From assembly GCF_030064895.1 (NCBI RefSeq), contig NZ_JASJEB010000023.1, positions 1-42,239 of the forward strand: 42,239 bases of DNA. Reading direction: 5' to 3'. This stretch comes from Crocosphaera sp. (lineage in GTDB: Bacteria > Cyanobacteriota > Cyanobacteriia > Cyanobacteriales > Microcystaceae). The notes beneath the pieces were generated by a model that was given only the letters and a program-made list of their open reading frames with translations, was not told the origin of the DNA and ran no database searches. The translations under genes and the position numbers were made by a program. The number at the start of each line of letters is the position of its first letter. The first letter of the stretch is position 1. Shown here one piece after another: positions 2,096-42,095 of the stretch.

Positions 2096-2851
2096 ATGTC
2101 GGAAGAATGGTTAGCTTTAATGATTGGTAATTCTCGACTACATTGGGGCTATTTTAAGGGGGAATTTTTACATAATACTGGTGATACTCTTCATATTCAG
2201 CAAATGGTTAATCCTTTGAGATTGCCTGATAATTGTTTTAGTTTTCCTCTGGCTGATTCTTTACCTTTAATGCTTGCTTCTGTGGTTCCATCTCAAACTA
2301 AATTTTGGCAAAGTTATCAAAATGTTAATCTAATTAGGTTAGAGGATGTTACCTTAAATAATCTTTATTCAAGTATGGGCATTGATCGAGCTTTAGCTGC
2401 ATTAGGTGGGGGAGAAATGTATCAGTTTCCTTGTTTAATTATTGATGCTGGTACGGCTTTAACTTTGACGGGTATTGATAGAGATCGCACTTTTATTGGG
2501 GGAGCTATTTTACCTGGATTAAAGTTACAATTTGATTCATTATCTTCAAAAACAGCAGCTTTACCTAATATTAGTTTACCGAAAAAATTAAGCGATCGTT
2601 GGGCTAATAATACGGAGAATTCTATTATTAGTGGGATTTTATATACGGTTTTAAGTGGAATTAAAACTTTTATTGATGATTGGTTGCTCAAATATCCTGA
2701 AAGTAAAATTATTTTAACTGGTGGTGATGCTACTCAATTATATGATTATTGGCAACAAGAAAATTATGAACAATTAGAACAAATAATAGTTGATCATAAT
2801 TTAATCTTTTGGGGAATGCGATCGCTTTATGTTTCAGGTTTGTACTTTTAA
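2096..2851 (+). CDS. coaX: Type III pantothenate kinase
   Basis: CoaX phosphorylates pantothenate, the first step of coenzyme A synthesis. The family motifs are in order: MIGNSRLHWG near the N-terminus (the D/GNS nucleotide loop), GIDRALAALGG (substrate-binding G-x-D-R), IDAGTALTLT (the D-A-G-T-A motif) and GGAILPGL. Length of about 250 residues is normal for the type III family, which is distinct from CoaA and PanK-II. I chose ATG 2096; an in-frame GTG at 2084 would add four residues, and neither has a strong ribosome-binding site. The 3' end runs to 21 nt before the NACHT gene start, suggesting read-through transcription. Confidence 0.93.
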   Translation: MSEEWLALMIGNSRLHWGYFKGEFLHNTGDTLHIQQMVNPLRLPDNCFSFPLADSLPLMLASVVPSQTKFWQSYQNVNLIRLEDVTLNNLYSSMGIDRALAALGGGEMYQFPCLIIDAGTALTLTGIDRDRTFIGGAILPGLKLQFDSLSSKTAALPNISLPKKLSDRWANNTENSIISGILYTVLSGIKTFIDDWLLKYPESKIILTGGDATQLYDYWQQENYEQLEQIIVDHNLIFWGMRSLYVSGLYF

Positions 2852-2871
2852 GAGTTTATCTATTTTTAGTT

Positions 2872-5151
2872 ATGATCAAACAAAAATATTTACTACGTTT
2901 ATTTATCCTAACTTTGAGTTTATCGATTTTCTTGGGTTCGGTTAGTTCTTCTTATTCTCAAAATCCTTCTTCTAACCTTTCTAGTAAGCAAATGGTAATT
3001 AAGGAGATTAAAGGATATGCACAGCGTCATGTTGATAATAATGAGAACATGAAAACTGAGGTTATTATTGAGCTTTATAAGGACAATACTATTGGACTGA
3101 CAAAAGTAACAATTGCTGAAATTTATGAAACAGAGTATGCTCGACTAAAACAAGTAAAAAATCAAGATAGTAACAGTATTTTTTCACAATTACCTAAAGG
3201 TTTATATGGATGGATTGTTGCTGCTGTTCTTTTTATTTTATTGATTATTAGAGATTTAATTAAGGAGTTGCTAAAAACATCATTCAAGAATATAAGTAAC
3301 TGGGTTTATCAGCAATTTTCGGGAACAGCTTTTTTTGAAGATATAAATCTCAAAAGTTATCGTCAAGCTTTGATTAAAAAATATGAAAAACTGAAGATAA
3401 TTTTTCGTCCTAATTATCCTTTAGATATGAGAACAGTTTATGTTCCTTTGAAAGTTTCAGGAAGCAAAGAGTATAAATCAATTGAAGTTGATAATGCACT
3501 TAAAGATTATAAGCGTTTAGTAATAAAAGGTGCGCCTGGTTCTGGGAAATCAATGTTTTGTAGATATTTCTGTCTGTCTTATGCGGAGGGTAAATTAAAC
3601 TATTTATTGGATAAACCTATTCCTATTTTATTGGAATTACATAGTTTAAAACATTCTAATCTGACTGTGGAAAATTTAGAAAAAATTTTAGTCAAAGTCT
3701 GTGCTTTAAATGATTTTCCTAAAGCAGATCGTTTTATTACTGAAGGTTTGAGAAAGGGAAGGATATTTTTATTATTTGATGGCTTAGATGAGGTTAATAT
3801 TTCTGCACGCTCATCGGTTATTGAGGTCATAAAAAACTTTTTAGATACTTATGACAAATGCCGAGTTATTATTACTTGTCGTACAGCAGTTTATCAGAAT
3901 CAATTTTTTGATGTTGTGGATCAAACTTTAGATATAGAAGAGTTTAGAGATAAACAAATTCGAGATTTTCTCAAAGAATGGAAGTCTCAAATGTCTCCTG
4001 GAAAATCAGTGGAACAACTGATGGAACAATTGCGAAAACGACCGAAAATTATGGAGTTAGCAAGAAACCCTTTATTATTAACTATGATTGCTTATCTTTA
4101 TACTGATACACCTTTTATTTTGCCTCATTCTCGTATCGAATTTTATCAAAAAGCAACGGATACTTTACTTGAACTTCGAGATCAAATAAAAAATATACGG
4201 AATGAATATGAAGGAAAGAATAAAAGACGTATTTTACAATCTCTTGCTTTATATCTTTCTAATTCTCCACAACAAGATCGTCGTGAAATATCTTATGACA
4301 TCATAATAAATAAACTTAAAGAAGTTCTCCCAAGTCTTAATTTAAGTCCCAGTGATACCAACCCTATTATCAAAGAAATTTGCGATCGCAGTGGTTTATT
4401 ATTACGTATTGACGGAGGAGAAAATTATAAATTTGCTCATCTTAGCTTACAAGAATATTTTGCAGCAGAAGCATTAAGAGGGAGTGAACTAGAATTGATT
4501 AATAAGTTTAAAATTGATACAGTTGCATGGCGAGAAATTGTTAAATTATGGTGTGGTTTAGCCACTGATAGCACTAACTTAATTCGAGAAGTTTATGAAA
4601 AAGATCCTTTAGCAGCGTTGGAATGTTTAGCAGATGCTCAACTTGTTGATGAAACCCTAGCTAACAAAATTATCGAACATTTTAAACAAGAACTTCTCAA
4701 TCAAGAAGATACAGAAAATATTGCCAAAGCTTTAGCTGCTGTTGCTGCTGATTATCGTCCCAGGGGAGAAGCTTTATTACAGTTTTTAGTTGACATTATG
4801 AATGAGGATGATAACTCTAGTCATAAACAAGCAGCAGCGAAGACATTATCTTACACAAATTTACCTAAAGCAGTGTATATTTTAGCTGAATACTATCATC
4901 AACCTCATTTATTACAAGTTCGTCAGGAATTAATTAGAATGGGTGACTTGGCTGTGTCAACCCTGGAATCTATTGCTATGGAAAATTGTGTCCAAGCAAT
5001 GGATGATTTAGTTGCTATTGGAACCCCTGATGCTGCTGATACTTTAGAGAAATTCCTGCATAATCCTCAATTAAAAGAAGAAGCTGCTTATCGGGTGGCT
5101 GCTGTTTTAGATAAACTTAAAGAAGATGAAAATAGTAGCGGTCGCCTTTAA
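2872..5151 (+). CDS. Membrane-anchored NACHT-family NTPase with HEAT-like C-terminus
   Basis: NACHT proteins are STAND NTPases acting as signal-responsive switches, several of them in antiphage defence. From ATG 2872 the protein is 759 residues. Residues 1-29 look like a signal peptide or first span. Residues about 30-108 form a charged soluble segment and about 110-130 a hydrophobic span. Then come Walker A GAPGSGKS (about 220-227), Walker B LLFDGLDEV (about 300-308), the ITCRT sensor and the NACHT winged-helix motif FAHLSLQEYFAAEAL (about 521-535). The last 170 residues read as helical HEAT/PBS-lyase-like repeats with repeated Ala-Ala and Leu. The frame opens upstream at 2809 inside coaX, but ATG 2872 gives a sensible leader. 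No effector enzyme domain is fused. Family is sure; whether it serves defence or another signal is unknown. Confidence 0.9.
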   Translation: MIKQKYLLRLFILTLSLSIFLGSVSSSYSQNPSSNLSSKQMVIKEIKGYAQRHVDNNENMKTEVIIELYKDNTIGLTKVTIAEIYETEYARLKQVKNQDSNSIFSQLPKGLYGWIVAAVLFILLIIRDLIKELLKTSFKNISNWVYQQFSGTAFFEDINLKSYRQALIKKYEKLKIIFRPNYPLDMRTVYVPLKVSGSKEYKSIEVDNALKDYKRLVIKGAPGSGKSMFCRYFCLSYAEGKLNYLLDKPIPILLELHSLKHSNLTVENLEKILVKVCALNDFPKADRFITEGLRKGRIFLLFDGLDEVNISARSSVIEVIKNFLDTYDKCRVIITCRTAVYQNQFFDVVDQTLDIEEFRDKQIRDFLKEWKSQMSPGKSVEQLMEQLRKRPKIMELARNPLLLTMIAYLYTDTPFILPHSRIEFYQKATDTLLELRDQIKNIRNEYEGKNKRRILQSLALYLSNSPQQDRREISYDIIINKLKEVLPSLNLSPSDTNPIIKEICDRSGLLLRIDGGENYKFAHLSLQEYFAAEALRGSELELINKFKIDTVAWREIVKLWCGLATDSTNLIREVYEKDPLAALECLADAQLVDETLANKIIEHFKQELLNQEDTENIAKALAAVAADYRPRGEALLQFLVDIMNEDDNSSHKQAAAKTLSYTNLPKAVYILAEYYHQPHLLQVRQELIRMGDLAVSTLESIAMENCVQAMDDLVAIGTPDAADTLEKFLHNPQLKEEAAYRVAAVLDKLKEDENSSGRL

Positions 5152-5176: not shown

Positions 5177-5216
5177 GAGTTCGGAGTTCGGAGTTCGGAG
5201 TTCGGAGTTCGGAGTT
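5177..5216. repeat. Heptanucleotide tandem repeat (GAGTTCG)5
   Basis: Five head-to-tail copies of GAGTTCG plus a partial sixth, just after the NACHT stop codon. Heptanucleotide short tandem repeats (STRR) are a known feature of cyanobacterial intergenic DNA. Copy number is probably variable between strains. Confidence 0.9.
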
Positions 5217-5965
5217 GTTATTTTGTTAAGGACATAATAGGAGTTTGAGACTTGAAGCTTATTAGTAAGCTATCCATAAATTCCCTTTCGTCCAACTCAA
5301 GTCATCAATTATGACTACAAATAAACCCGTTTAATTGAACATAATTTCAACAGTCCGTATCTAATCACATATTTACTCTATTTTATCAAGATATACTTTA
5401 CAAAAGTTATCTATGGGTAAAAATGAACTATAAAAAATGAATGTTAGAATCTTGAAAATTTGTGGGGATATCAAGACAAAAAGTTAATTCAAGAACGGAG
5501 TAATTACTGTTACAAGGGGAAAGCCTTATTTTCGGATATAGTTAAAGCCCATCCTACCTAAAATATTTATAACACGAAAATAGCAAAAATGCAAATATCG
5601 GGCAAATTTAGTTAAAATATGGCAAAATTGCTTAATTATTAAGTTGTGTAAAGAGAGCAATTTGATTGAAAAATATCATATTTTTACTCAAAAAGTATAA
5701 TCTTTAATTATATAAAATTAGCTAACTAAATCTTTCTGTTTTTATAACGGATAGAAAATTTATAGTCAATTATGATATTTATAACAATCAGTAATGATAT
5801 GTGAGAAGCGAGAATATATCAGGACATAATAGTATTATCTCCCTACTATTGCCTCCTTGTAGGGGTTTAACACCGTGTTTTACCCAGAAAGCTAATGTTC
5901 TCACAACTGAAACCTGATTGCTATAGATAACAATTCTATTATAAGCCATCGAACTGGTAGAAATC
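5217..5965. other. AT-rich gap without a recognisable gene
   Basis: No convincing coding frame on either strand, and no tRNA or transposase remnant recognised. It is very AT rich, with several TATAAT-like hexamers that probably include the promoter of the membrane protein at 5966. A weak imperfect palindrome lies near 5863-5887 (GGGTTTAACA then TGTTTTACCC). Either regulatory DNA or decayed sequence. Confidence 0.4.
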
Positions 5966-7258
5966 ATGAGAATTAATAGTTTACAGCTATTTAATAGACG
6001 AAGACGCAGACAAACAACAGAATATTTATCTAATGAAGATTATAGTTGGATTTGGGAACCTTTTAAAGACGCTAAAGATTCAAAGTTAGCTAAAACAGCT
6101 TGTTTAGTTTCGGAAATTATTGCTAATAGTTCCCCCGATAAAATTCCTAAAGTTCCTTTCAATCTTGATCCTCGTATTGTCATTCCTTTATGTGCGATTG
6201 TTCTTCAAAAGGATCTTAATAATCTTGGTCAAGTCAATATAGAAGAATTTTCTTCTAGAAACGACGCTGTTAATTACTTTCTTTTAAAAACACAACCTAG
6301 TTCTCGTTGGCTATATTTATTTGATAGTCTATCTCCTCAATTACAATATAATTTATGTTATATTTTTAGTCATTATCGTCTTTGTAATAAGAACGATTGG
6401 CGCAATTTATTCAAGCATAACAATTATGAATTTAATACAAGCTGGCATTATTATTTCATCCTTGCTATTTTCTTAGTTATTTCTGTAATAGCTATGATTA
6501 GAGGATTTGTTTTTATCAGAATTACTGTTAATATATTTCTGCGTATATTTGTTATTTTTAATTTTATTATACTCATTGCTTTTTGGTTTTATTGGCGAAA
6601 ACATGGTTTTAAATTAACATCTTTAAAAGATATAAACCGGAATCATGAATTTATTAATTTTATTTATGATATTGGATTAATAGTATGTGGATTAGGAATA
6701 TTAATTGAGATTTTTTTTCTTGAGATGTTTCTAGTAATCAGTAATATAACAAGCGAACCAAACTGGTTCGCACTTTCAACTTTTTTTGTCTCTTTCATTG
6801 GATTTATTACAAGTTTATTAATCAAAAATATTATCATCAAATCCAAAATAAGAAATGATTTTATAGCTGTGAATATTGGTGTAATTATTATTCTTGGTGG
6901 GATTCTTGGTGGGATTCTTGGTGGGATTCTTGGTGGGATTATTATTGTTGGTGTAATTATTGAAGGGATTATTATTGTTGGTGTAATTATTGAAGAGATT
7001 ATTATTATTGTTGAGAGAATTATACAATCCTTGAAACCTTTATGTATGTTAATTATTATGTTTTCTCCTTTTATATCTAGTCTTTATTTTGTCAACTATA
7101 CTCTCATTAATTTATTATCTTTGGGATGGATAGAAATATTGCTATTTTGGTTAACTACTTTAGGAATAGGTGGGATACTTTACTGGAGAGGAAAGACCCT
7201 TGATTATAAAGCGAGAAACCCCTTAAAAGGAATATTAGATAATACAATCATTCAATAA
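5966..7258 (+). CDS. Unknown multi-pass membrane protein with in-frame tandem repeats
   Basis: I do not recognise this 430-residue protein. Residues 1-155 are soluble-looking, with a basic RRRRR stretch at 11-15 and a conserved-looking block around residues 111-137 (SSRWLYLFD, then LQYNLCYIFSHYRL). From about 160 to 405 there are roughly six to eight hydrophobic spans. Residues 309-344 are encoded by tandem repeats: four 12-nt units giving (LGGI)n, then two 30-nt units giving GIIIVGVIIE. These add or remove whole Leu/Ile/Gly membrane segments without breaking the frame. The ATG at 5966 follows a long AT-rich gap and has no clear ribosome-binding site. The gene stands alone between the NACHT gene and an oppositely oriented coiled-coil gene, so context gives no function. 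Confidence 0.7.
   Translation: MRINSLQLFNRRRRRQTTEYLSNEDYSWIWEPFKDAKDSKLAKTACLVSEIIANSSPDKIPKVPFNLDPRIVIPLCAIVLQKDLNNLGQVNIEEFSSRNDAVNYFLLKTQPSSRWLYLFDSLSPQLQYNLCYIFSHYRLCNKNDWRNLFKHNNYEFNTSWHYYFILAIFLVISVIAMIRGFVFIRITVNIFLRIFVIFNFIILIAFWFYWRKHGFKLTSLKDINRNHEFINFIYDIGLIVCGLGILIEIFFLEMFLVISNITSEPNWFALSTFFVSFIGFITSLLIKNIIIKSKIRNDFIAVNIGVIIILGGILGGILGGILGGIIIVGVIIEGIIIVGVIIEEIIIIVERIIQSLKPLCMLIIMFSPFISSLYFVNYTLINLLSLGWIEILLFWLTTLGIGGILYWRGKTLDYKARNPLKGILDNTIIQ
6890..6997 (+). repeat. Coding minisatellite: 12-nt x4 followed by 30-nt x2
   Basis: Four perfect copies of ATTCTTGGTGGG (6890-6937) are followed by two nearly identical 30-nt units (6938-6967 and 6968-6997), all in frame within the membrane protein. 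Unit lengths are multiples of three, so copy-number change would alter a membrane segment but keep the reading frame. Confidence 0.9.
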
Positions 7259-7302
7259 TGGATAATGGATAATGGATAATGGATAATTGATAATTGATAA
7301 TT
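7254..7302. repeat. Heptanucleotide tandem repeat (GATAATG/GATAATT)
   Basis: Seven 7-nt units: AATAATG, three of GATAATG, three of GATAATT. They overlap the stop codon of the membrane protein and end 12 nt before the stop codon of the convergent coiled-coil gene. This is the same heptamer class as at 5177 and 36609. Confidence 0.85.
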
Positions 7303-11539: not shown

Positions 11540-12100
11540 ATGGTTAAAACACCATCTAAACCTTTAACCCTAGAAGAATTTTTAAACCTCCCTGAAACAA
11601 AACCAGGGACGGAATTTATTCAAGGAAAAATTAGACAAAAATCTATACCACAAGCAGAACATAGTTTATTACAAGGTGAACTTTGTTCTGTTATCAATAA
11701 TATAACAGAAGAGGAAAAAATTGCTTATGCTTTTCCAGAATTACGTTGTACCTTTGGGGGAAATTCTATTATTCCTGATGTCTCTGTGTTTCGTTGGTCA
11801 AGAATTCCTATAAATTCATCAGGAAAAATTGCCAACCGTTTTGAAACATATCCTGATTTGTCAATTGAAATTTTATCCCCTCGTCAAAGTTTAACGAGAG
11901 TATTAGAAAATCTGTTATATTGTTCTCAATATGGAACAGAATTGGGTTGGTTAATTGATCCCGGAGAAAAAAGGATTTTAGGTGTTTTTCCTGAACAAAA
12001 AGTACAATTATTTCGAGGTGATCAAGAATTACCAATTTTAACAGGAATCGATTTACAGTTAACCGTTGAACAGATATTTAATTGGTTAAAATTTTCTTGA
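11540..12100 (+). CDS. Uma2-family (DUF820) PD-(D/E)xK nuclease-like protein
   Basis: This 186-residue protein belongs to the Uma2 family, which is massively expanded in cyanobacteria and has a restriction-endonuclease-like fold of uncertain biological role. Landmarks are LTLEEFLNLPETKPGTEFIQGKI at the N-terminus, the catalytic-type IIPDVSVF (about 77-84), PDLSIEILSPRQS (105-117) and GTELGWLIDP (132-141). After the EILSP strand, the usual downstream Lys is replaced by the variant ENLLYCSQYG, a common cyanobacterial subfamily, so activity is uncertain. It is divergent from higBA and 77 nt upstream of the ATPase gene. Confidence 0.9.
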   Translation: MVKTPSKPLTLEEFLNLPETKPGTEFIQGKIRQKSIPQAEHSLLQGELCSVINNITEEEKIAYAFPELRCTFGGNSIIPDVSVFRWSRIPINSSGKIANRFETYPDLSIEILSPRQSLTRVLENLLYCSQYGTELGWLIDPGEKRILGVFPEQKVQLFRGDQELPILTGIDLQLTVEQIFNWLKFS

Positions 12101-12177
12101 AGTTTACCTAAGAATTACTATCTGCTATAATAAAAATAGTTGAAACTTAAACTAAAACATTATGGATTAGTGAACCG

Positions 12178-13296
12178 ATGAAAAATTTAGAAAGTCTTAC
12201 TATTCATCAGTTCCGAGGTTTAAAAGATGTCAAACTTGAAAACCTGGGTCAAATTAATGTCTTGGTTGGGTTTAATAATTCAGGTAAAACAAGTGTACTT
12301 GAAGCGATTCAAATTTATTGTAATCCTTTAAATATTAGAGTTTGGTTAAATGTTGCTAATCAAAGAAAACAAGATATAACTCTGCTAAAAAGATTATCAA
12401 TAGAAGCTTTACAATGGTTATTTCCTGGTAGTAAAAAACCTATCATGATAACAACTCAAGGGATGTTTATCATAAAAAAAATTTATGTAAATTATAAAGC
12501 TGTAGAAGAAATAGGATTTTTTGATCGCAGAAGTGATCACCAATTAATGCTCGAAAATATTGAAGATATTGAAGATGATGATCTAAGAGAATCTAGAAAT
12601 GTTGTTAAATTAAGTATAGAAGTGGGTTTCAATAATGATCAAAATGATCCTCAATTATTTACTATGACCAAAGAACTTGAAATACGTGATAAACATCCTA
12701 TTTCTATTGATAGTAAATTTTATAGTTTATCCAGTATTTTCATTTCTGCCTATTCTCATATATCTGAAAAGGGTCTTTCTCGTTTATTATCGGAAGTAAG
12801 AATGCAAGACTTTAAGACAAATGTTCTTGAATTATTACAACAAGTTGATCCTAATATTTCTGATTTAGAAATTTTAAATTCACCTAGTTCAACTTCTTCT
12901 GGATTTGAAGTTTATATTCAACATGATCAACTGGGACTAACTCCAGTAAGTAATTTAGGGGATGGTCTTCGTCGTTTACTCTATATTTCTTTAATTATTA
13001 TTCAAGCAAAAGGAGGAGTTCTTCTTATTGATGAAATTGAGTCATCAATTCATACCGAAGCGTTAAAATTTTCCATGCAATGGTTAGTTAAATGGTGTAA
13101 AGAATTGGATATACAATTATTTGCTACTACTCATAGTTTAGAAGCAGTTGACGCAATTTTAGAAGTAACAGAACCCACAACAGATTTAGTGTTTTATCGC
13201 TTAGAAAATAAAGAAACATACACTAAAGTTGTCAGACATCCTGGAGAAAGATTAAAAAGATTAAGAGAAGAGTTAGGCCAGGAGGTTCGTTGGTGA
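12178..13296 (+). CDS. OLD/AAA_15-like ABC-type ATPase, partner of the TOPRIM protein
   Basis: This 372-residue ATPase belongs to the SMC/ABC-like AAA group found in OLD nucleases and in antiphage systems such as PARIS and Gabija relatives. It has Walker A GFNNSGKTS (31-39) and a long insertion with coiled or charged segments (about 60-230). The ABC-signature-like SNLGDGLRR (258-266), Walker B GVLLIDEIESS (280-290) and H-loop ATTHS (316-320) follow. It ends RW-stop, with the stop codon overlapping the GTG start of the next gene in GTGA, a sign of coupled translation and a functional complex. Split ATPase plus TOPRIM pairs usually act as DNA- or RNA-targeting immune modules. The exact system name cannot be set from sequence alone. 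Confidence 0.88.
   Translation: MKNLESLTIHQFRGLKDVKLENLGQINVLVGFNNSGKTSVLEAIQIYCNPLNIRVWLNVANQRKQDITLLKRLSIEALQWLFPGSKKPIMITTQGMFIIKKIYVNYKAVEEIGFFDRRSDHQLMLENIEDIEDDDLRESRNVVKLSIEVGFNNDQNDPQLFTMTKELEIRDKHPISIDSKFYSLSSIFISAYSHISEKGLSRLLSEVRMQDFKTNVLELLQQVDPNISDLEILNSPSSTSSGFEVYIQHDQLGLTPVSNLGDGLRRLLYISLIIIQAKGGVLLIDEIESSIHTEALKFSMQWLVKWCKELDIQLFATTHSLEAVDAILEVTEPTTDLVFYRLENKETYTKVVRHPGERLKRLREELGQEVRW
13280..13285 (+). promoter_or_regulatory. Strong Shine-Dalgarno fixing the GTG start of the TOPRIM gene
   Basis: AGGAGG lies 7 nt before GTG 13293 inside the ATPase 3' end. An alternative TTG at 13290 is in the same frame, but the spacing favours GTG. Confidence 0.75.
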
Positions 13297-33742: not shown

Positions 33743-34056
33743 TTAAAACAAGCAAGCTAGTAGTTTTTCTCTCATAGTATCGAAATCTTTAAATCCATAG
33801 CTTTGACGAAGAATTAGTTTTATTTTATTGTTTAATCCTTCCATAACACCACTGGTAGTTCGATTAATAAAATAATGACAAATTTCTTGGATATGTTTGT
33901 TAATATTCTGTCCCGCAAACCCAATTCACGACAATATTTTCTCTGGTTGGCGATCGCATCGCTTAACAAAACTTCCAGTTGCCCTGCGATCGCCCTATCT
34001 TCCATCATGGGACGTTGTTGCCGTTTGGCATGATTACGGTTCATTTTTCGACTCAT
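33743..34056 (-). pseudogene. Chimeric transposase remnant (IS4-type N-terminus joined to ISL3-type C-terminus)
   Basis: From ATG 34056 the frame reads MSRKMNRNHAKRQQRPMMED and on through IANQRKYCRELGLRDRIL, the N-terminus of an IS4-type transposase. Near 33895-33905 it changes to unrelated sequence. In another frame the minus strand then encodes HIQEICHYFINRTTSGVMEG and NKIKLILRQSYGFKDFDTMRE, ending at TAA (33743-33745). That is the C-terminal DDE region typical of ISL3-family transposases. Two different insertion-sequence genes have thus been joined by deletion. No intact transposase remains. Confidence 0.65.
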
Positions 34057-34209
34057 TTAAGTTAATTATAGCTTATCACCTCTTATTTTAGAAAAAGTTA
34101 TTTCCTTCTTCCCGATCTGCCTAAAATCGCTGTTTAACACCTCTTGACATCGGCTTCATTCTCTTAACTTGTCACAAATGCCCCCCATCTCCCCGTCACC
34201 CCGTCACTA

Positions 34210-34238
34210 TGTAAACTTTTGTTAATAATTTCGGATTT
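34210..34238 (+). promoter_or_regulatory. Shared upstream element, copy A (before the PspA-like gene)
   Basis: TGTAAACTTTTGTTA followed by ATAATTTCGGATTT matches, at 26 of 29 positions, the sequence at 36746-36774 upstream of the sigma-like gene. A further AGATAA follows both. It lies 78 nt before ATG 34288. It is a candidate promoter or operator for the PspA-like/sensor pair. Confidence 0.55.
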
Positions 34239-34287
34239 ATGGGTGTCTTTTCCAGATAACTCAATAGGCGTTATTCAAAAAGGCAAC

Positions 34288-34977
34288 ATGAAAAATAAAA
34301 TTGTGAAAGGACTCTTAGGTGAAAAGGCTGGCAATACAGTTATAGCTGTATGGCGTTGGGCTTGGGGTTTACCCATTGAAACAGGGGGCAAAGTTGCTAA
34401 AAATGTAGCCCAGCAGTCTTTACAAGATATGAACGAAAAAATCCAACAGCTTGCTGCTGGAGTAGCTAAAGTGGTTGCTGCCCATGATAAAGCTAAAACC
34501 AAATATCTGGAGAAACGTAAAGAAATTGACTATGCAAAACAACAGGCGAAAATTGCTAACGACAAAGGCAATAAAGATGCGGCCAAAATTGCCATAACCA
34601 AAGTTATTATGATGGAAAAGATCATGCCTAAATTGGAAGAAATGGTGAATAAATCAGAAGAAATAATGACTACGGCACAAGATAATCTTCAGCGAGAAAA
34701 AGAAAAATTAGAAACCTATAAATTAGAACTTGCTAATTTATCAACTCTCACAGAAATGAATGAAGCAATGAATAAAATTTCTGCTACTACTAATAGCTTG
34801 GATTTGGGTTCAGCAACGAGCCAATTTACTGAAGCTCAAAATGCCATTGAAGGTAGATATTTGGAGGAAATGTCTGTGATTGAATTATCAGAAAATTCCA
34901 CAGACAAACTAGGTCGTCAACTGGATGATTTAACTTTAGAAGACGAAATTAGTAAGCGTTTAGAAGAGTTAAATTAG
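34288..34977 (+). CDS. PspA/IM30-like coiled-coil protein, first gene of the CHAT-sensor cluster
   Basis: This 229-residue, highly helical protein resembles the PspA/Vipp1 (ESCRT-III-like) fold, more divergent than the copy at 25223. Residues 1-45 hold a weakly amphipathic start (GEKAGNTVIAVWRWAWGLPIETGGK). Long coiled coils run from about 45 to 165 (HDKAKTKYLEKRKEIDYAKQQAKIANDKGN). The C-terminal acidic part ends EISKRLEELN. It would act on the inner face of the membrane. I chose ATG 34288, preceded by AAGG; the frame opens upstream without a good start. The sensor gene follows after about 114 nt on the same strand. Family placement is probable, not certain. Confidence 0.7.
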   Translation: MKNKIVKGLLGEKAGNTVIAVWRWAWGLPIETGGKVAKNVAQQSLQDMNEKIQQLAAGVAKVVAAHDKAKTKYLEKRKEIDYAKQQAKIANDKGNKDAAKIAITKVIMMEKIMPKLEEMVNKSEEIMTTAQDNLQREKEKLETYKLELANLSTLTEMNEAMNKISATTNSLDLGSATSQFTEAQNAIEGRYLEEMSVIELSENSTDKLGRQLDDLTLEDEISKRLEELN

Positions 34978-35091
34978 TTTGTCTTCAATCAAGATTATCT
35001 AGTGTAATAGCAGTTTTATACTAAATACAATTAACTGAAAACTGCTGTGAATAAGTCAAGTCAAACACAAAAATATTGGAGTAATGCAGCC

Positions 35092-36456
35092 ATGACAACT
35101 AGCAACACAAAAGGGTTTAAAATACCTCCCATTATTTGGATAATTTTAGGTGTTATTCTTATCTTGAGTATTCCGAGAATAATGTCATTTATTAAGTTTC
35201 CAGATACAATATTTGTTGAGGATAATAATGATAATAATGATATAGGTATTCTGGGAACAATAACCGAGACAAAACAACAGGCAGTTGAAGCCTATAGCAG
35301 AGGAGACTTTCTGGCTGCACAAAACTATTTTCAATTATCACTTGCTCAGCAAAGAAATGATCCAGAATCTTTGATTTACTTAAATAATAGTCGGGCAAAA
35401 GAAAGCGTAAATTTACTCAAATTAGCTGTGGTTGTTCCTATTGGCAGCAACTTAAATATTGCTCAGGAAATCTTGCGAGGAGTGGCACAAGCGCAAAATG
35501 AAATAAACGATAAAGGGGGAATTAATGGGCAATTTTTACACATTACAATTATCAATGATAATAACGATCCAAAAGTTGCTAAAAAAGTTGCTAAAAAATT
35601 AGTTAAAAACTCAGATATTATGGGAGTAATCGGTCATAATGCTTCTACCGTTTCTCAGGAAGTTGCTCCTATTTATCAAAAATCTGGGTTAGTTATGATT
35701 ACACCAACCAGTTCAGCTAAAGGTATTCCCGATGTAGGAAATTATATCTTTAGAACCCTACCTAATACGAATGCGATGGCTCAAACTTTAGCCAACTATG
35801 CCCTAGAAAATAGTCAAAAATTTGCTATTTGCTATGATTCAACATCCTTATTTTCTCGGTCTTTTAAAAACACATTTAGCACAATTATTTTGCAAAATCA
35901 AGGACAATTATCACCTACTGTTTGTGACTTCTCAGCAGTGAATTTTAACGGAGATAAAGAAATAAGAGAAGCCTTGAATAATGGGGCTGATACTATGGTC
36001 ATCATTCCCCATATTGATGGAATAGAAAAAGCTAATTTGTTGGCAGTAAAAAATAGAGGAAGATTAAACTTTTTAGGAACAAGTGTCTTAAATACTATTA
36101 AAACATTGGAGGTCGGAGAATCAATGGAAGGGTTATCTATTGTTGTTCCCTGGAGTGCCAAAAATCCCTTAAATCAGCTATTTGCTACCTCTGCACGACA
36201 ACTTTGGGGGGGGAATGTAAATTGGCGTACAGCAAGTGCCTATGATGCTACAAATACCTTCATTGAAGGGTTAAGGCAAGGTCAAACTCGCGATACTTTG
36301 CAACAAGCCATAGAAAACCCTCAATTTAGCACTAATACTATCAATGGGATAGTGAAATTTTTGCCCAATGGCGATCGCTCTGTTAAGGGCATTATAGTAC
36401 AAGTTCAACCCTCTAAACATCAGACAGGTTACGATTTTATTCCTATTGAACCATAA
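35092..36456 (+). CDS. Membrane-anchored TPR-like/periplasmic-binding sensor
   Basis: This 454-residue protein has a short cytoplasmic N-tail and one membrane span (about 12-33, PIIWIILGVILILSIP). A TPR-like helical pair follows (about 62-105, ETKQQAVEAYSRGDFLAAQNYFQ). The rest is a full periplasmic ligand-binding domain of the amino-acid/amide type (Peripla_BP_6, about 112-450). Landmarks are VVVPIGSNLNIAQEILRGVAQAQ, IGHNASTVSQEVAPIYQKSGLVMITPTSS and YDATNTFIEGL. It lacks a lipobox and no ABC permease is nearby, so it is a sensor rather than a transporter part. It is a clear paralogue of the C-terminal part of the CHAT protein at 39180. GTG 35047 would add 15 residues; I prefer ATG 35092. 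Confidence 0.82.
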   Translation: MTTSNTKGFKIPPIIWIILGVILILSIPRIMSFIKFPDTIFVEDNNDNNDIGILGTITETKQQAVEAYSRGDFLAAQNYFQLSLAQQRNDPESLIYLNNSRAKESVNLLKLAVVVPIGSNLNIAQEILRGVAQAQNEINDKGGINGQFLHITIINDNNDPKVAKKVAKKLVKNSDIMGVIGHNASTVSQEVAPIYQKSGLVMITPTSSAKGIPDVGNYIFRTLPNTNAMAQTLANYALENSQKFAICYDSTSLFSRSFKNTFSTIILQNQGQLSPTVCDFSAVNFNGDKEIREALNNGADTMVIIPHIDGIEKANLLAVKNRGRLNFLGTSVLNTIKTLEVGESMEGLSIVVPWSAKNPLNQLFATSARQLWGGNVNWRTASAYDATNTFIEGLRQGQTRDTLQQAIENPQFSTNTINGIVKFLPNGDRSVKGIIVQVQPSKHQTGYDFIPIEP

Positions 36457-36486
36457 GTTCGGCTACAGATTCCTATAGGGAGGGGT

Positions 36487-36516
36487 CATTTCATTTATCA
36501 TTTATCATTTATCATT
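36487..36516. repeat. Heptanucleotide tandem repeat (TTTATCA)
   Basis: Three perfect TTTATCA units with a degenerate flanking copy, after the sensor gene. Confidence 0.75.
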
Positions 36517-36586
36517 CGTTTGGAAGTAGGCTTGAAACCTCTCCCAAACTTCTTTCTCCCTAAAGGGGGAGGCTTGAAACCAAAAT

Positions 36587-36607
36587 GAAAGATGAAAGAT
36601 GAAAGAT
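36587..36607. repeat. Heptanucleotide tandem repeat (GAAAGAT)3
   Basis: Three perfect GAAAGAT units directly before the longer TTCAATG array. Confidence 0.75.
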
Positions 36608-36608
36608 G

Positions 36609-36713
36609 TTTAATGTTCAATGTTCAATGTTCAATGTTCAATGTTCAATGTTCAATGTTCAATGTTCAATGTTTAATGTTCAATGTTCAATGTTCAATGT
36701 TCAATGTTCAATG
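36609..36713. repeat. Heptanucleotide tandem repeat (TTCAATG)15
   Basis: Fifteen 7-nt units, nearly all TTCAATG with two TTTAATG variants, in the gap between the sensor gene and the sigma-like gene, about 30 nt upstream of the shared element. It is the longest of several heptamer arrays in this window. Confidence 0.92.
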
Positions 36714-36745
36714 TCTGGTCAACAACCCTTGACCCCTACAATCTT

Positions 36746-36774
36746 TGTAAAGTTTTGTTAGTATTTTCGGATTT
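36746..36774 (+). promoter_or_regulatory. Shared upstream element, copy B (before the sigma-like gene)
   Basis: TGTAAAGTTTTGTTA followed by GTATTTTCGGATTT; three mismatches against copy A at 34210. It begins 119 nt before ATG 36865. It could be a recognition site for the sigma-like protein encoded just downstream, or a common promoter. Confidence 0.55.
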
Positions 36775-36864
36775 GGAGTGCTTTAGTCTAGATAAAAGAG
36801 TAGGGACAACCTGAAAGGTAACTGTTAAACTGCCTTAAGCTAGGATTAATTGTGGAAATTAATT

Positions 36865-37509
36865 ATGTGCGAAGTCGATGAACAATTAAAGCAACTGCTT
36901 GAAAAAGCTATGGGAGAAAATCCTAATAGCCAAACCTACAAACTCCTATTTCAGCAAATTATGTTTCAGATGCAACAGTCAGGCAAAATATTGCAACGTA
37001 GTCATAATGTAGACATTGATTCTTATCAGAATGCTATCCTGAAAAATTGGGAATGGTTACGGAAGAAATTGCCAGATTATGATCCAGACATAGGTAGGAT
37101 TTATTCATGGTTCAACAAGACATTATACTACCGAATTAAGGATGAACAAAGCATACTATTCAATCAACAAAATAGTGAAGCTTATCCTCTTTTTGATTAC
37201 CAAAATGGACAATGGACTAATCCTCTTGATTTAATTCCTGCACCTCCTAAAAACTATGATTTATTGCAAGAAATTGAAGTATTTTTAGAGAAAAATAGAA
37301 GTAAACTAGAGTCTAATTATCCTCAAAATTGTCCTCAAGGTAACTGCTATTATTTACTTAACAATCGTCTTCCCATGGGAGAAATTAAACCTTGGAATCT
37401 CTTGGCAGAAGAGTTAGAGAGTAATCCAAAAACCTTGAACAGTCACTATCAAAAGAAATGTCTAGAATTCTTAAGAAACTGGCTAGAAAAGCAAGGATAT
37501 AAACTTTAA
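36865..37509 (+). CDS. Sigma-70-like protein of the CHAT/DUF1822 type
   Basis: This 214-residue protein resembles the divergent sigma-70-like proteins that in cyanobacteria often precede DUF1822 and CHAT genes. A region-2-like segment (about 45-105) contains SGKILQRSHNVDIDSYQNAI and LPDYDPDIGRIYSWFNKTLYYRIKDEQ, with the fold's aromatic-basic face. A region-4-like helix-turn-helix lies near the C-terminus (WNLLAEELESNPKTLNSHYQKKCLEFLRNWL). Regions 1 and 3 are absent. It could be a specialised sigma or a DNA-binding regulator that uses the fold. ATG 36865 is preferred over TTG 36850. DUF1822 follows after 41 nt. Confidence 0.75.
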   Translation: MCEVDEQLKQLLEKAMGENPNSQTYKLLFQQIMFQMQQSGKILQRSHNVDIDSYQNAILKNWEWLRKKLPDYDPDIGRIYSWFNKTLYYRIKDEQSILFNQQNSEAYPLFDYQNGQWTNPLDLIPAPPKNYDLLQEIEVFLEKNRSKLESNYPQNCPQGNCYYLLNNRLPMGEIKPWNLLAEELESNPKTLNSHYQKKCLEFLRNWLEKQGYKL

Positions 37510-37550
37510 ATGAATACCCTAGAGCACTGCATTTTTCAACAATAAAGGCC

Positions 37551-38651
37551 ATGAATAATTCTCAAACAAATTTCTTACAATCTATTACCATTCCCTTAAC
37601 CAAAAGCGATCATAATATTGCTTTAAAACTGGCAACACCACAAATTAGTAAAAGTAAACAACAACAGGTTTATGTTAATGTTCTTTCTGCTTTAGTTGTT
37701 AAACACTATTTAGATATTTTTGACATCGAAACAGATTTTGATAATAGTTACGTTTCTCAAGCTTTTTATCATCTAACTTGTGATGTTGCTGATTTAAAAA
37801 TCATCGATAATCATTTAGGAAAACAAGGACATTTAGAATGTCGTCCTTTAATGAAAGGTGATAGTGATATTTATATTCCCTTGGATGTCTGGGATGATCG
37901 CATTGCCTATGTTTTTGTTCAATTGGATGATTATTATAGAAACGGATTAATTATAGGATTTTTGCCTACTATTGATCAAGAAATTATTCCGCTTAATAAA
38001 CTAAAACCTCTTACTGATTTTCTCGAATTTATCTATATCAAATCTGTCAATTTAAGAGAATGGCTGAATCATCAATTTAGTGATTCTTGGCTCTCCTTAG
38101 AAGAGATGATAAAATCTTCTCAAATTGAACCTCAAATGACCTTTCAATTATTTCCTGCTTTTCGTTCTTTGCCTATAAATGGACTTCAGCAACAATTGAG
38201 AAAATTAAGTGATAGTATTAACTTAGAAAAACCTATTAATGATATTGTTAATATTATTAAAACTACGGAAAATGAAAAGAAATTTTGGGAAGCAGTAGAA
38301 CTTTTAAGACTGTTGGAACCATCTCATCCAGCTATGGGAATTAGCAGAATTAAAGAACTTGAAACCTATTTAGCAAGTCCCTTAATTATGATGATACATA
38401 TTGTTGAGAAAACAGAGGAAACAATGGCTATTGCTTTACAAGTTAATTCCTTAAGTCTTGATAATAAATTGCCCCCTAACCTAACCCTAAGTCTTTTTGA
38501 AGGCACTGATAAACTACTAAAAGAGATTGTTACCAATTCCGATCCCTTGGATATGAATATTAAGTTAAAATTTAGTGCAGTGTTAGGTGAGCAATTTACA
38601 GTTAAACTAACATTAGGGGATAAAGTTTTCAGTGAACACTTTATTGTATAA
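37551..38651 (+). CDS. DUF1822-family protein
   Basis: This 366-residue soluble protein belongs to a cyanobacteria-specific family (DUF1822) without known activity. The family core is visible: ALVVKHYLDIFDIETDFDNSY, then CDVADLKIIDNHLGKQGHLECRPL, PLDVWDDRIAYVFVQLDDYY and IGFLP. The second half is a helical linker followed by an Ig-like beta domain (about 275-366). Members usually sit between a sigma-like gene and a CHAT gene, as here, so it is probably an adaptor or sensor of that module. It is 13 nt upstream of the CHAT N-terminal gene and probably in the same transcript. Confidence 0.85.
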   Translation: MNNSQTNFLQSITIPLTKSDHNIALKLATPQISKSKQQQVYVNVLSALVVKHYLDIFDIETDFDNSYVSQAFYHLTCDVADLKIIDNHLGKQGHLECRPLMKGDSDIYIPLDVWDDRIAYVFVQLDDYYRNGLIIGFLPTIDQEIIPLNKLKPLTDFLEFIYIKSVNLREWLNHQFSDSWLSLEEMIKSSQIEPQMTFQLFPAFRSLPINGLQQQLRKLSDSINLEKPINDIVNIIKTTENEKKFWEAVELLRLLEPSHPAMGISRIKELETYLASPLIMMIHIVEKTEETMAIALQVNSLSLDNKLPPNLTLSLFEGTDKLLKEIVTNSDPLDMNIKLKFSAVLGEQFTVKLTLGDKVFSEHFIV

Positions 38652-38664
38652 ATAGGATCTGCTT

Positions 38665-39156
38665 ATGGATAAAAAGATTATTCTGCAAATTATTGGAGGT
38701 AGTTTTCAAGAAGGATTTTCCGTCATTGTACAAATTAGTAAAAGAGGACAATCTCTACAATCTAATTATCAGGGTAAACTACCTGGAAACATGGAGATTA
38801 TGTCCGCTTATCAACAGTGGCAAAATGATTATTATTTGAGTCCGATGATTCGTTCTGCCGGTATCAGAAATCCTCGTATTAAACTATCCAATGAATTAAC
38901 GGAGGTAGTGTCTGAAAATGATTATATAAATAGTCAAGAAAACTTACAAACAATGATGAAAAACTGGTTAGATTCCAGAGATTTTAGAGAGATTAAAGAA
39001 CATATTTGTGACGAGGTTAATAAAGATGAATCAGCACAACTAATTATTACTACAAATAATGTAGATTTACAACGTCTCCCTTGGCAAACTTGGAACTTAT
39101 TTAAACGTCGTACTCTGATAGAAGTTAGTTTTAGTTCAGCTAATTTCTATCATTAA
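38665..39156 (+). CDS. Stand-alone N-terminal half of a CHAT protein
   Basis: This 163-residue protein matches the N-terminal domain normally fused in front of the CHAT protease domain in this cyanobacterial family. It has the opening KKIILQIIGGSFQEGFSVIVQI, the PGNMEIMSAYQQWQNDYY segment and the closing QRLPWQTWNLFKRRTLIEVSFS, which in one-piece homologues leads straight into the protease core. Here a stop (39154-39156) ends it, and the protease gene starts in another frame 11-23 nt later. Frame and codon use look intact on both sides. It is either a natural split or a gene broken by an indel. It probably binds the CHAT part. Confidence 0.7.
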   Translation: MDKKIILQIIGGSFQEGFSVIVQISKRGQSLQSNYQGKLPGNMEIMSAYQQWQNDYYLSPMIRSAGIRNPRIKLSNELTEVVSENDYINSQENLQTMMKNWLDSRDFREIKEHICDEVNKDESAQLIITTNNVDLQRLPWQTWNLFKRRTLIEVSFSSANFYH

Positions 39157-39179
39157 TTTAATTTTAGTTGAAAATAACA

Positions 39180-41222
39180 ATGGCAGTTAAAACAATTAAG
39201 AATCCGAGAATTTTAGTGATTTTTGGAAGCGATCAAAATCTCAATTTACAGAGAGATCAAGAAATTATTGAAACCTTGAAGAAAAAAGGAGCTAAAATAA
39301 CCTGGTTACAGGAATCAGATACAGAAAAAATAACCAAGAGAAAGTTAATTAACCTATTGTCAACTAAACATTGGGATATTTTGTTTTTTGCTGGTCATAG
39401 TTACTCATGTTATGATCAAGATAATCAAGAAAATGGGATAATTTTACTTAGTGAAGATGAAAATATTTCTTTAAGGGAGTTACAAACTTCTCTAAAAAAA
39501 GCAGCAAAAAAAGGACTAAAAATTTGTATTTTTAATTCTTGTGATGGATTATTTTTAGCTCGAAACTGTGCTAATTTTGGCATTCCTAAAATTATTTTTA
39601 TGCGAGAACCTATTCCTGATAAGGTTGCCCATGATTTTTTAGAAGCCTTTCTTTTACAATTTTCTCAAGGAGAATCTTTAGAATTATCTCTTCGTCATAG
39701 CCGAGATATTTTAAGAGACAAATACGAACAAAATCATCAAACTTTACCAGGAATTAGTTGGTTACCAACCCTTTATCAAAACCCTACCAGTCCTTTAATA
39801 ATTTGGAAACAAATTAATATAATTAAGCAAAGGATTATTGCTGCTATAATTACTATATTTTTAATACCTTTACCAATATCTTTCTCCATCTATCTGTTAT
39901 CACTAATAAACGGTTCTTCTGAAAATATTACTGCTTCTACTCTAACAAATACTTTTATTCATACTATTAATCCTCGTTTTAGTGGAGGCGAAAGCAGTTT
40001 ATTGAAATTCAATAAAGATCATAAATTAATCCAAGACGCAAACAAATATTATCAACAAAAAAAATGGAAATTAGCTAAAGATAAGTTTCAAGAAGTTTTA
40101 GAGAAAGATAACAATAATCCTGAAATTATGATTTATAAAAATAATGCTCTAGCTGAACTGAATGAAGAAAATATTAAAATTGCAATTGTTATTCCTGTAA
40201 ATAACCCTGATATTGCTCAAGAAATGTTGCGAGGAGTGGCACAGGCACAAGAAGAGATAAATCAAGAAGGTGCTATTAATAGTAAACTTTTACATATTAC
40301 TATTGTTAATGATGATAATGAGCCACAAATTGCTGAAGAAGTAGCTAAAAAATTAGTTAAAAATCCAGAAATTATCGCAGTGATTGGTCATAACTCATCA
40401 GAAGTATCCTTAAAAGCAGCTAAAATTTATCAAAAAGAAGGCTTAGTTATGATTAATCCAACTAGCTTAGCCTATGGTATAACCGATGTCGGTAATTATA
40501 TCTTTCGTACCTTACCTAAGATTCAAAAGATGGCTGAAAAGTTGGCTGAATATGCAAAAATAAACAATCAAAAAATCGCTATTTGTTATGATTCGCAAGC
40601 CTTCGCCAGTAAATCTTTTAAAGACCAATTTACAGCAGCTTTGGGAGAAGAAAAAGATCGATTAGCTAATAGTATTTGTGATTTGCATTTACCCTTTTTT
40701 AATGCTAGTCAAGAAATAGATGAAGCCGTCAAATATAAAGCTAATACCATGCTGATACTTCCCAACATTCAGCAACTGGAAAAAGCCTATGAACTAGCTA
40801 AAGCCAATCAAGGACGATTAAACTTGTTAGGAGAAATTACTCTGGTTACTGGAACCACCCTTGATCAAGAAAACTCTATGGAAGGACTGACCTTGCTTGT
40901 ACCCTGGAGTCCTAAAAATTCAGAAAATCAGCCCTTTGCCGCCTCTGCTCGACAATTTTGGGGGGGAGATGTGTCTTGGCGTACAGCAACGACCTATGAT
41001 GCTACCTATGTGGTGATTAATGGCTTAAAAGAAGGTCAAACCCGTGAAAGTTTACAAGAGAGGTTAAACAAACCTCAATTTAGCAGTAAAACTATTAATG
41101 GAGAAGTAAAATTTTTGTCCAACGGCGATCGCCAAGGGGAACCCTTTCTGGTTCAAGTTCGACCTTCTAAAAATCACCCCACAGGTTATGATTTCCAAAT
41201 GTTAGATCCGAAAAAAAACTAA
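39180..41222 (+). CDS. CHAT caspase-like protease fused through a membrane span to a periplasmic ligand sensor
   Basis: This 680-residue protein has three parts. Residues about 1-205 are the CHAT (caspase HetF-associated with TPR) domain. The catalytic histidine lies in DILFFAGHS (His73) and the cysteine in CIFNSCDG (Cys121), both present; REPIPDKVAHDFLEAF and LPGISWLPTLYQNP are also family blocks. One membrane span follows (about 218-243, IIAAIITIFLIPLPISFSIYLLSL). Outside lie a TPR-like helical segment (about 284-325) and a Peripla_BP_6 domain (about 333-675). The latter is closely similar to the sensor at 35092 (for example EMLRGVAQAQEEIN and VGNYIFRTLP). Predicted topology puts the protease inside and the sensor outside, so ligand binding could control proteolysis. 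TTG 39168 is an alternative start. Confidence 0.85.
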   Translation: MAVKTIKNPRILVIFGSDQNLNLQRDQEIIETLKKKGAKITWLQESDTEKITKRKLINLLSTKHWDILFFAGHSYSCYDQDNQENGIILLSEDENISLRELQTSLKKAAKKGLKICIFNSCDGLFLARNCANFGIPKIIFMREPIPDKVAHDFLEAFLLQFSQGESLELSLRHSRDILRDKYEQNHQTLPGISWLPTLYQNPTSPLIIWKQINIIKQRIIAAIITIFLIPLPISFSIYLLSLINGSSENITASTLTNTFIHTINPRFSGGESSLLKFNKDHKLIQDANKYYQQKKWKLAKDKFQEVLEKDNNNPEIMIYKNNALAELNEENIKIAIVIPVNNPDIAQEMLRGVAQAQEEINQEGAINSKLLHITIVNDDNEPQIAEEVAKKLVKNPEIIAVIGHNSSEVSLKAAKIYQKEGLVMINPTSLAYGITDVGNYIFRTLPKIQKMAEKLAEYAKINNQKIAICYDSQAFASKSFKDQFTAALGEEKDRLANSICDLHLPFFNASQEIDEAVKYKANTMLILPNIQQLEKAYELAKANQGRLNLLGEITLVTGTTLDQENSMEGLTLLVPWSPKNSENQPFAASARQFWGGDVSWRTATTYDATYVVINGLKEGQTRESLQERLNKPQFSSKTINGEVKFLSNGDRQGEPFLVQVRPSKNHPTGYDFQMLDPKKN

Positions 41223-41282
41223 GAAGCAGTGACCATCAAGCTAATTCTCCCTAAAATGATTGTTATAGTAACAGAGAAAATC

Positions 41283-41627
41283 ATGTCAAAAAATAACAAT
41301 AGCGGTTTATTTGTAGTCGGGGTAGTTTTGGGCAGTATGGTGGGAACCGTTACCGGACTACTATTAGCCCCCCGTTCCGGAAAAGAAACCCGACGCATTA
41401 TCAAAAAATCTGCCGATGCACTGCCAGAAATGGCCGAAGACTTATCCACCAGTGTGCAACTACAAGCCGATCGCCTCTCAGAGTCCGCACAAAAAAACTG
41501 GGATGGAACTCTAACCCGACTCAAAGAAGCGATCGCAGCCGGCATAGAGGCCAGCCAACTGGAAAACCCTCCTGTGGACTCTCCCCGCGATATCACTCCT
41601 CAAACCAACTCTTCCAACAATAATTAG
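41283..41627 (+). CDS. YtxH-domain small membrane protein
   Basis: This 114-residue protein has the YtxH signature: a short hydrophobic glycine-rich span near the N-terminus (about 9-31, LFVVGVVLGSMVGTVTGLLLAPRSG) ending in the LLAPRSGKETR motif. A helical charged tail follows (about 32-95) and then a low-complexity Ser/Asn end. YtxH/gas-vesicle-like proteins are membrane-associated and often stress-related; the role is unknown. I chose ATG 41283; an in-frame start at 41229 gives an unlikely leader. It follows the CHAT-sensor gene by about 60 nt on the same strand, but its more GC-rich codon use suggests a separate unit. Confidence 0.8.
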   Translation: MSKNNNSGLFVVGVVLGSMVGTVTGLLLAPRSGKETRRIIKKSADALPEMAEDLSTSVQLQADRLSESAQKNWDGTLTRLKEAIAAGIEASQLENPPVDSPRDITPQTNSSNNN

Positions 41628-41687: not shown

Positions 41688-42095
41688 TCACGATCTAGGT
41701 TTCTGCTTCAATGCAGTTGCCTTCCGAGATTTACTCTCTTCAGGTCTTACACTCGCTCCACAGACTGACACCCCAAAGGGGTTCGGCAGTCGCTCATGGG
41801 GGAAACCCCCAAGACCGCGCTGCCTCACCGCAAGCCCTGCGGCCAAAATATTGCCACTGGCGTTAATGTCACGGTCATGGTTAGTCCCACATTTAGGACA
41901 TTCCCATTCCCTAATATCTAACGACAGTTTATCTACAATGTGACCACAATTTCCACAGCGTTTACTACTAGGAAAATAACGGTCAATTTTGACTAATTCC
42001 TTGCCATACCATTCACATTTATACTCTAGTTGGCGGTTAAATTCTCCCCAACTAGCGTCACTAATTGACCTAGCTAACTTATGGTTCTTGACCAT
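41688..42095 (-). pseudogene. tnpB: N-terminally truncated TnpB (IS200/IS605 family)
   Basis: The frame encodes the last 135 residues of a TnpB RNA-guided nuclease. It opens VKNHKLARSISDASWGEF. A Cys4 zinc ribbon follows (CGNCGHI at about 47-53, CPKCG at about 70-74), then DRDINASGNILAAGL with the RuvC-III aspartate. Full proteins are about 400 residues. The RuvC-I aspartate and RuvC-II glutamate are missing, and a stop lies shortly upstream, so it cannot cut DNA. The tail contains QRGLGGFPHERL, shared with the tnpB tail at 2-94 in inverted orientation. It is a decayed insertion. Confidence 0.85.

Follow-up and report, generated by a model that had tools for sequence, protein, structure and literature searches.

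A group of six genes at positions 34288-41222 of a contig from Crocosphaera sp. (NZ_JASJEB010000023.1; the 42,239 nucleotides analysed are hereafter the window) looks like a periplasmic-sensor form of the EACC2-caspase systems described in 2021 (PMC8195603). In order, the genes encode a PspA-like protein, an anchored periplasmic-binding protein (PBP) of the Peripla_BP_6 family, a sigma-like protein, a DUF1822 protein, a 163-amino-acid protein, and a receptor protease in which a CHAT domain is joined by a membrane span and a TPR-like linker to a second Peripla_BP_6 domain. The original prediction, made from the letters of the DNA, had taken these same-strand genes for one module. All six open reading frames (ORFs) lie on the + strand and are intact, with no internal stop, and the co-localisation of the CHAT, sigma-like and DUF1822 genes is conserved in relatives; however, genes 1-2 and genes 3-6 are probably two transcription units. 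The claim that the combination was undescribed has to be given up, since proteins with an alpha+beta EACC2 domain, a caspase and variable receptor C-termini, encoded beside extracytoplasmic function (ECF) sigma and DUF1822 genes, are in print and were proposed to detect stimuli, switch on the peptidase and exert their effect by way of the ECF sigma coupled to them (PMC8195603). The window shares with them the CHAT domain, the variable C-terminal sensor and both neighbouring genes. It differs in its Leu/Ile/Val-type PBP sensor, its separate EACC2-like gene and its attached pair of PspA-like protein and anchored PBP, and these three features look new. The main text of PMC8195603 mentions small-molecule-binding domains and contains neither "periplasmic" nor "Peripla", and no description of CHAT-Peripla_BP fusions was found in the open-access literature searched. 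DUF1822 appears in two papers of that literature.

The receptor protease (39168..41222; 684 amino acids; start at TTG 39168 or ATG 39180) carries the signalling reading. Its CHAT domain lies at 39204..39812 (Pfam, E = 1.2e-12), and a profile of this domain alone matched the solved CHAT chain 8tl0_A (E = 7e-5). The catalytic pair that had been noted as His73 and Cys121 is His77 (codon 39396-39398) and Cys125 (codon 39540-39542) when counted from the TTG start, and both residues are present in 44 of 44 aligned rows. These rows are the window protein and 43 proteins of 600-940 amino acids. Of the 47 proteins found in this size range, the alignment omits L097 and three near-copies from Microcystis; it also omits seven longer proteins, of about 1240 amino acids. 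An AlphaFold model from this alignment (mean predicted local distance difference test score, pLDDT, 88.7; predicted TM-score 0.65; weak confidence around the span) places His77 right after the strand 71-75 and Cys125 right after the strand 119-123. Such positions, directly after beta strands, are those expected for the two residues in a caspase-type fold. The genome encodes 15 CHAT proteins above the Pfam cut-off. HetF is a cyanobacterial member of the CHAT family; its model NF045509 gave a weak match (E = 0.0072; 14.6 bits vs a cut-off of 1200), and we know of no PBP or sigma-DUF1822 partners of HetF.

The sensor had been read as fused to the protease across the membrane, and this is borne out by Pfam domains on either side of one hydrophobic span. 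The predicted span (about residues 218-248; 39819..39911) rests on hydropathy and on low-confidence model helices at 218-232 and 238-248. It is followed by a short TPR-like helical linker (about residues 285-331; 40020..40160), seen as three model helices with weak, sub-cut-off Pfam TPR matches, and by the Peripla_BP_6 sensor domain of Leu/Ile/Val-binding type (40170..41210; E = 2.8e-22). With the whole-protein model as query, the 50 Foldseek matches listed are of PBP type and place the sensor with leucine-binding proteins (best 4q6b; E = 7.9e-21; TM-score 0.87 by target), a listing that speaks to the sensor and not to the CHAT fold. Positive charges precede the span (Lys214, Lys220 and Arg222) and the next lysine or arginine is Arg270, so that by the positive-inside rule the CHAT domain is predicted to lie inside and the PBP domain outside the cytoplasmic membrane. 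The equivalent of Ser79 of LivJ, which with Thr102 we take to be a ligand contact, is kept in the sensor (Ser411; serine in 42 of 44 rows).

Gene 3 (36850..37509; 219 amino acids; TTG 36850 or ATG 36865) is assigned as a sigma-70/ECF-like protein by way of its relatives. The window protein was aligned with 36 relatives found in the fetched loci: TIGR02937 (sigma70-ECF) matched 17 of the 37 members at E <= 0.1 (best 9.6e-9), Sigma70_r2 matched seven at the same threshold (best 0.00075), and NF041236 (CAS_III-E_sigma) matched four (best 4.4e-6). Against the PDB, the sigma profile found RpoE/ECF SigE (2q1z) weakly, at E = 0.0043, below a designed helical protein at 0.0016. Gene 4 (37551..38651; 366 amino acids) encodes the single PF08852 (DUF1822) match of the genome (E = 9.8e-51), and its model (pLDDT 90.4) has a C-terminal beta sandwich.

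The neighbourhood is conserved and not a product of chance. One genome per species was scanned and the best 80 of 568 relatives were taken, ranked by likeness to the CHAT-PBP query, so that the shares given here are not frequencies in nature. By profile, 47 of the 80 loci carry a CHAT-PBP fusion and 33 a CHAT gene without it. DUF1822 was found in 40 of the 47 fused loci, directly upstream on the same strand in 37, and in 27 of the 33 others; a profile-matched sigma gene was found in 28/47 vs 10/33. Thus, the co-localisation proposed in the original prediction holds in relatives, and DUF1822 and sigma-like genes do accompany CHAT. This periplasmic-binding version of the CHAT module recurs across cyanobacteria (47 loci) and looks new. 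Five loci (L058, L079, L080, L100 and L102) hold two to four EACC2-CHAT-PBP genes each. In eight other genomes of the window's own genus (79-100% complete), no protein among the matches listed spanned both CHAT and PBP and no close PspA-like copy was found, so the module looks accessory within its genus.

A functional parallel for the three central proteins comes from type III-E CRISPR, where the CHAT protease Csx29 cleaves Csx30, an inhibitor of an ECF-like sigma factor (PMC10028731). This Craspase/CASP system (the TPR-CHAT protein Csx29, Csx30 and CASP-sigma) likewise encodes a CHAT protease, an ECF-like sigma and a third protein together (PMC10028731). However, sensing in Craspase, in the account of that paper, is by guide RNA, whereas here it would be transmembrane. 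Furthermore, DUF1822 has no detectable kinship to Csx30 among the matches listed, and the parallel is a functional analogy only. Because of this analogy and of its position between the sigma and CHAT genes, DUF1822 is a candidate substrate of the protease and inhibitor of the sigma factor, and it is a more natural candidate substrate than the PspA-like protein.

On this basis, we tentatively propose, with confidence a little short of even, that the locus is a periplasmic-sensor EACC2-caspase (CHAT)/ECF-sigma/DUF1822 system in which an outside ligand would lead through CHAT and DUF1822 cleavage to free sigma. A small molecule would bind the Venus-flytrap PBP outside the cytoplasmic membrane, and the PBP would close, perhaps as part of a dimer, to which the PspA-linked PBP encoded alongside may contribute. 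The TPR-like linker and a single helix would relay the signal to the CHAT domain in the cytoplasm, to which EACC2 would be bound, in this lineage, as a non-covalent subunit. Activated CHAT would cleave DUF1822, the putative holder of the sigma-like factor in its inactive state, and the freed sigma would switch on its genes; both units of the module are plausible targets, by way of an upstream element that they share. The PspA-like protein and the anchored PBP would be a second arm acting on the same signal, likely in membrane protection. If true, this would be a testable route in cyanobacteria from an outside metabolite through a caspase-like protease to a sigma factor. The model predicts that DUF1822 is both a substrate of the protease and an inhibitor of the sigma factor.

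The proposed second arm carries a twin of the receptor's sensor. Gene 2 (35047..36456; GTG 35047 or ATG 35092) encodes a membrane-anchored protein with a TPR-like part and a Peripla_BP_6 domain (E = 3.9e-30), no protease, and a hydrophobic span within residues 21-52. The two PBPs of the window are sisters in the PBP-domain tree (support 100/96) and 57% identical, with synonymous divergence (dS) of 0.88 and nonsynonymous divergence (dN) of 0.33. Ten loci with both kinds of sensor were taken into this tree (L059 duplicates L040), and the stand-alone and fused PBPs are strict sisters in four of them: the window, L040, L048 and L083. This kinship of the two sensors within a locus looks new. In L100 one fused PBP adjoins the stand-alone PBPs of L100 and L079; the pairing in L086, a fragment, is weak, and L042, L044, L066 and L079 are unpaired. 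The window groups with two genomes from a different genus of the family (g10) in the EACC2-CHAT tree and not in the PBP tree, and this disagreement indicates that the sensor part has its own history, which may be one of gene conversion or of repeated duplication within loci. Stand-alone PBPs were found in 12/47 CHAT-PBP loci vs 1/33 CHAT loci without the fusion. Elsewhere in the same genome, a related Peripla_BP_6 domain (E = 2.9e-5, below cut-off) is fused to a Ser/Thr protein kinase (L175:5277-7472; C183), the same sensor cassette with a different output.

The two units also share an upstream element, which looks new as well. Its copies, at 34207..34268 before the pspA-like gene and 36743..36804 before the sigma-like gene, form a 62-nucleotide direct repeat, 71% identical, with a 25-nucleotide core at 34210-34234 (TGTAAANTTTTGTTANTANTTTCGG) and at 36746-36770. 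The core pattern was written from the two window copies, so both necessarily match; in the 5.5 Mb genome one other place lay within 3 mismatches (exactly 3), and a reversed control pattern likewise gave one match. When 40-nucleotide stretches upstream of pspA and of sigma or DUF1822 genes were compared, with five plain shuffles per pair, the window reached 30/40 vs 21-26 for its shuffles, a clear excess seen there alone. The element resembles HLR1, the site of the high-light regulator RpaB, for which the consensus KTTACAWW-N2-KTTACAWW has been given (PMC13421787). HLR1-like sites with up to two mismatches occur in 27/57 sigma/pspA upstream regions vs 46/640 other ORFs in the same loci, and with up to one mismatch in 11/57 vs 23/640; as the 57 regions include near-duplicate loci, Fisher values for these counts are not usable as probabilities. 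No HLR1-like site was found upstream of the CHAT-linked pspA genes of L079 and L100, or in 25 of the 30 pspA upstream regions of a wider set. The element could be a light or redox operator, or the linked sigma factor's own promoter.

Taken together with the receptor, these features allow a fuller account, which we regard as possible and somewhat more doubtful. A one-protein transmembrane receptor protease, with its Venus-flytrap ligand domain outside driving the caspase-like CHAT domain inside, would free sigma by cutting DUF1822; a PspA-like membrane-repair arm with a twin sensor would respond under the same promoter element, the sensors of the two arms being kept alike by gene conversion or repeated duplication. 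This would amount to a bacterial pathway from ligand to caspase to transcription that uses neither a kinase nor an RNA guide.

Several observations weigh against these proposals. DUF1822-sigma binding and DUF1822 cleavage are proposed from gene order and analogy. No PDB structure matched the DUF1822 model at E <= 0.001, and Csx30 was absent from the 50 structure matches listed for it; similarly, 57 DUF1822 members matched nine NCBIfam families, none of them Csx30, for which NCBIfam may have no model. DUF1822 is absent from 7/47 CHAT-PBP loci, in two of which (L063 and L085) the contig edge falls within the CHAT gene. The sigma-like protein of the window, taken alone, matched no Pfam or NCBIfam family at E 1, and 19/47 CHAT-PBP loci have no match to the sigma profile. 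Sigma-unmatched loci hold 19 ORFs directly upstream of DUF1822; eight of the ten scanned (five from fused and five from unfused loci) matched TIGR02937 at 3.1e-9 or better, five of them above its cut-off, and the ORFs of L094 and L129 did not match it. In the sensor, the equivalent of LivJ Thr102 is leucine in the window (Thr in 22 and Phe in 13 of 44 rows), and the ligand may therefore not be an amino acid. In six of the ten loci the tree does not recover the two sensors as strict sisters, and ten other loci have no stretch common to the upstream regions of both units (21-26 vs 21-26 for shuffles).

The same receptor protease might instead cut another protein, or CHAT itself, and bring about cell death or growth arrest under stress or phage attack, the sigma factor regulating only the expression of the module. 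CHAT and caspase systems are widely tied to conflict and programmed death, which lends this explanation some weight. In addition, autopeptidase activation has been proposed for EACC2-caspase proteins (PMC8195603). However, the Pfam scan matched no toxin or pore family in the module, and PADLOC, with a threshold of E 1e-3, matched none of the six proteins (the nearest was PglZ for gene 5, at 0.0018). Moreover, EACC2 and CHAT are separate genes here, so this lineage cannot rely on a cut in the linker between them for activation. We consider a death effector unlikely, if still a serious candidate.

Another explanation separates the two arms: the PspA-like protein with its anchored PBP and the EACC2-CHAT-PBP set would be two independent sensor systems that lie side by side and have a ligand type, and not a pathway, in common. 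Gene 1 (34288..34977; 229 amino acids) encodes a PspA/IM30-like protein of a distinct subfamily, which scores above the Pfam cut-off for PspA_IM30 (50.3 vs 33.9 bits; E = 3e-13) and below that of the PspA equivalog TIGR02977 (24.4 vs 242.95 bits). A profile of the subfamily matched 72 of 388 genomes of the class (E 1e-25), and the neighbourhoods of the 30 best-scoring of 74 matches were read. A binding-protein gene lies directly downstream on the same strand in 27 of these 30, of Peripla_BP_6 type in six and of PBP_like_2 type in 21 (as two broken ORFs in L185); it is lacking from that position in L193, L200 and L201. The PBP_like_2 type was named from four proteins, three with a hydrophobic span at the N-terminus and a fourth with a signal like that of lipoproteins, whose profile was then applied to the remaining partners. 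At least five of the 30 loci are CHAT-linked. Across many cyanobacteria (L184-L209, L169, L170 and L172), the PspA-like and PBP_like_2 genes form a pair and the stretches read contain no profile-matched CHAT gene.

The PspA-like/binding-protein pair is thus conserved with or without a neighbouring CHAT gene, and it looks new. Known partner systems of phage-shock protein (PSP) and PspA (PMC11237479) differ in that the partner here is a binding protein, and the Pfam scan found no ABC parts in the module beside it. The pair is not described in the passages of that PSP survey consulted, and no description was found in the open-access literature searched. To our knowledge there is none elsewhere. 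Such a pair ties a membrane-remodelling family to ligand sensing. Nothing found here supports the earlier suggestion that the PspA-like protein is a substrate of the protease, and the pair also occurs with no CHAT gene nearby in the stretches read.

Independence of the two arms is favoured by this CHAT-free occurrence, by the presence of PspA in just 8/47 CHAT-PBP loci, five of them from Microcystis, and by the lack of a common upstream stretch for the pspA and sigma units in other loci. On the other hand, PspA was found in none of the 33 CHAT loci without a PBP fusion (the rows, like the 47, not being independent of one another), both units in the window follow a common element that is closely matched nowhere else in the genome, and the two sensors are sisters in four of the ten loci. 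With so many of the eight loci from Microcystis, the CHAT-linked lineages of the pair were counted as about seven: the window, G012 (with the gene order of the window and EACC2 fused), G055, Microcystis, Pseudanabaena ULC068bin1, Microseira/UBA11372 and g10. In g10 the evidence is a gene fossil in both genomes, L038 (about 5400-5640) and L039 (about 12008-12226, or L166:1384-1602), in which the start of a PspA-like gene runs into the tail of a stand-alone PBP directly upstream of the sigma gene; the L039 copy is a 72-amino-acid ORF that matches both the PspA-like and the PBP profiles. Their ancestor probably carried the window's gene order, and two unconnected systems seem improbable to us.

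Gene 5 (38665..39156; 163 amino acids) bears on whether the window copy is functional. It had been called a CHAT N-domain gene, and it is indeed CHAT-associated, but it is really a detached N-terminus: in most relatives this part and CHAT form one ORF. It gave a chance-level family match (IS4 transposase, 0.055), no Pfam family at E 1 and no match to PDB sequences at E 10. It matches the N-terminus of the fused relatives and looks like the EACC2 domain of PMC8195603 split off. An EACC2-like part is present in 51 of the 55 CHAT-PBP ORFs of the named loci, and these 51 fused ORFs are of 792-929 amino acids in 42 cases and 1230-1250 in seven, while two reach a contig end. The same split occurs in the two g10 genomes, L038 and L039; the split lineages have a short gene of 163 or 166 amino acids and, after it, a CHAT-PBP gene of 684, 663 or 666. 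In the EACC2-CHAT tree the window, L038 and L039 form one clade (100/96), with the fused L048 as its sister (100/99). A frameshift artefact was rejected as the cause, as the g10 clade shares the split and both halves are under purifying selection (dN/dS between L038 and L039 of about 0.02/0.14 for the short gene and 0.02/0.12 for the long gene). The split is therefore of long standing and has been maintained, and EACC2 and CHAT need no covalent connection. That the window copy is decaying, with its CHAT gene broken in two and its module no longer working, might be read from the different frames of EACC2 and CHAT and from the long window branch in the EACC2-CHAT tree (1.16), but it is very improbable given that neither part has an internal stop, that His and Cys are kept and that the split is common to the g10 genes under purifying selection. 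The other four ORFs without an in-frame EACC2 were not counted as the same split: the L085 ORF begins at the edge of its contig, those of L074 and L078 seem to be broken within CHAT or within EACC2, and in L097 CHAT is spread over two ORFs.

The 393 bp between the two probable transcription units also hold a 7-bp tandem repeat, ATGTTCA, in 15.6 copies (36606..36714), and further 7-bp arrays lie at 5177-5216 and 7255-7301. At gathering score, Rfam found nothing in the window. Immediately past the module, a YtxH-like protein is encoded at 41229-41627, starting at GTG 41229, 6 bp after the CHAT-PBP gene, or at ATG 41283 further on. It is followed by a TnpB-type C-terminal fragment on the opposite strand (41688-42095, -; Cas12f1-like_TNB, 1.4e-26), and what we take to be a transposase-like remnant may sit at 33760-34050. 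The same contig encodes a NACHT/nSTAND3 and HEAT protein, a STAND-type NTPase, at 2809-5151.

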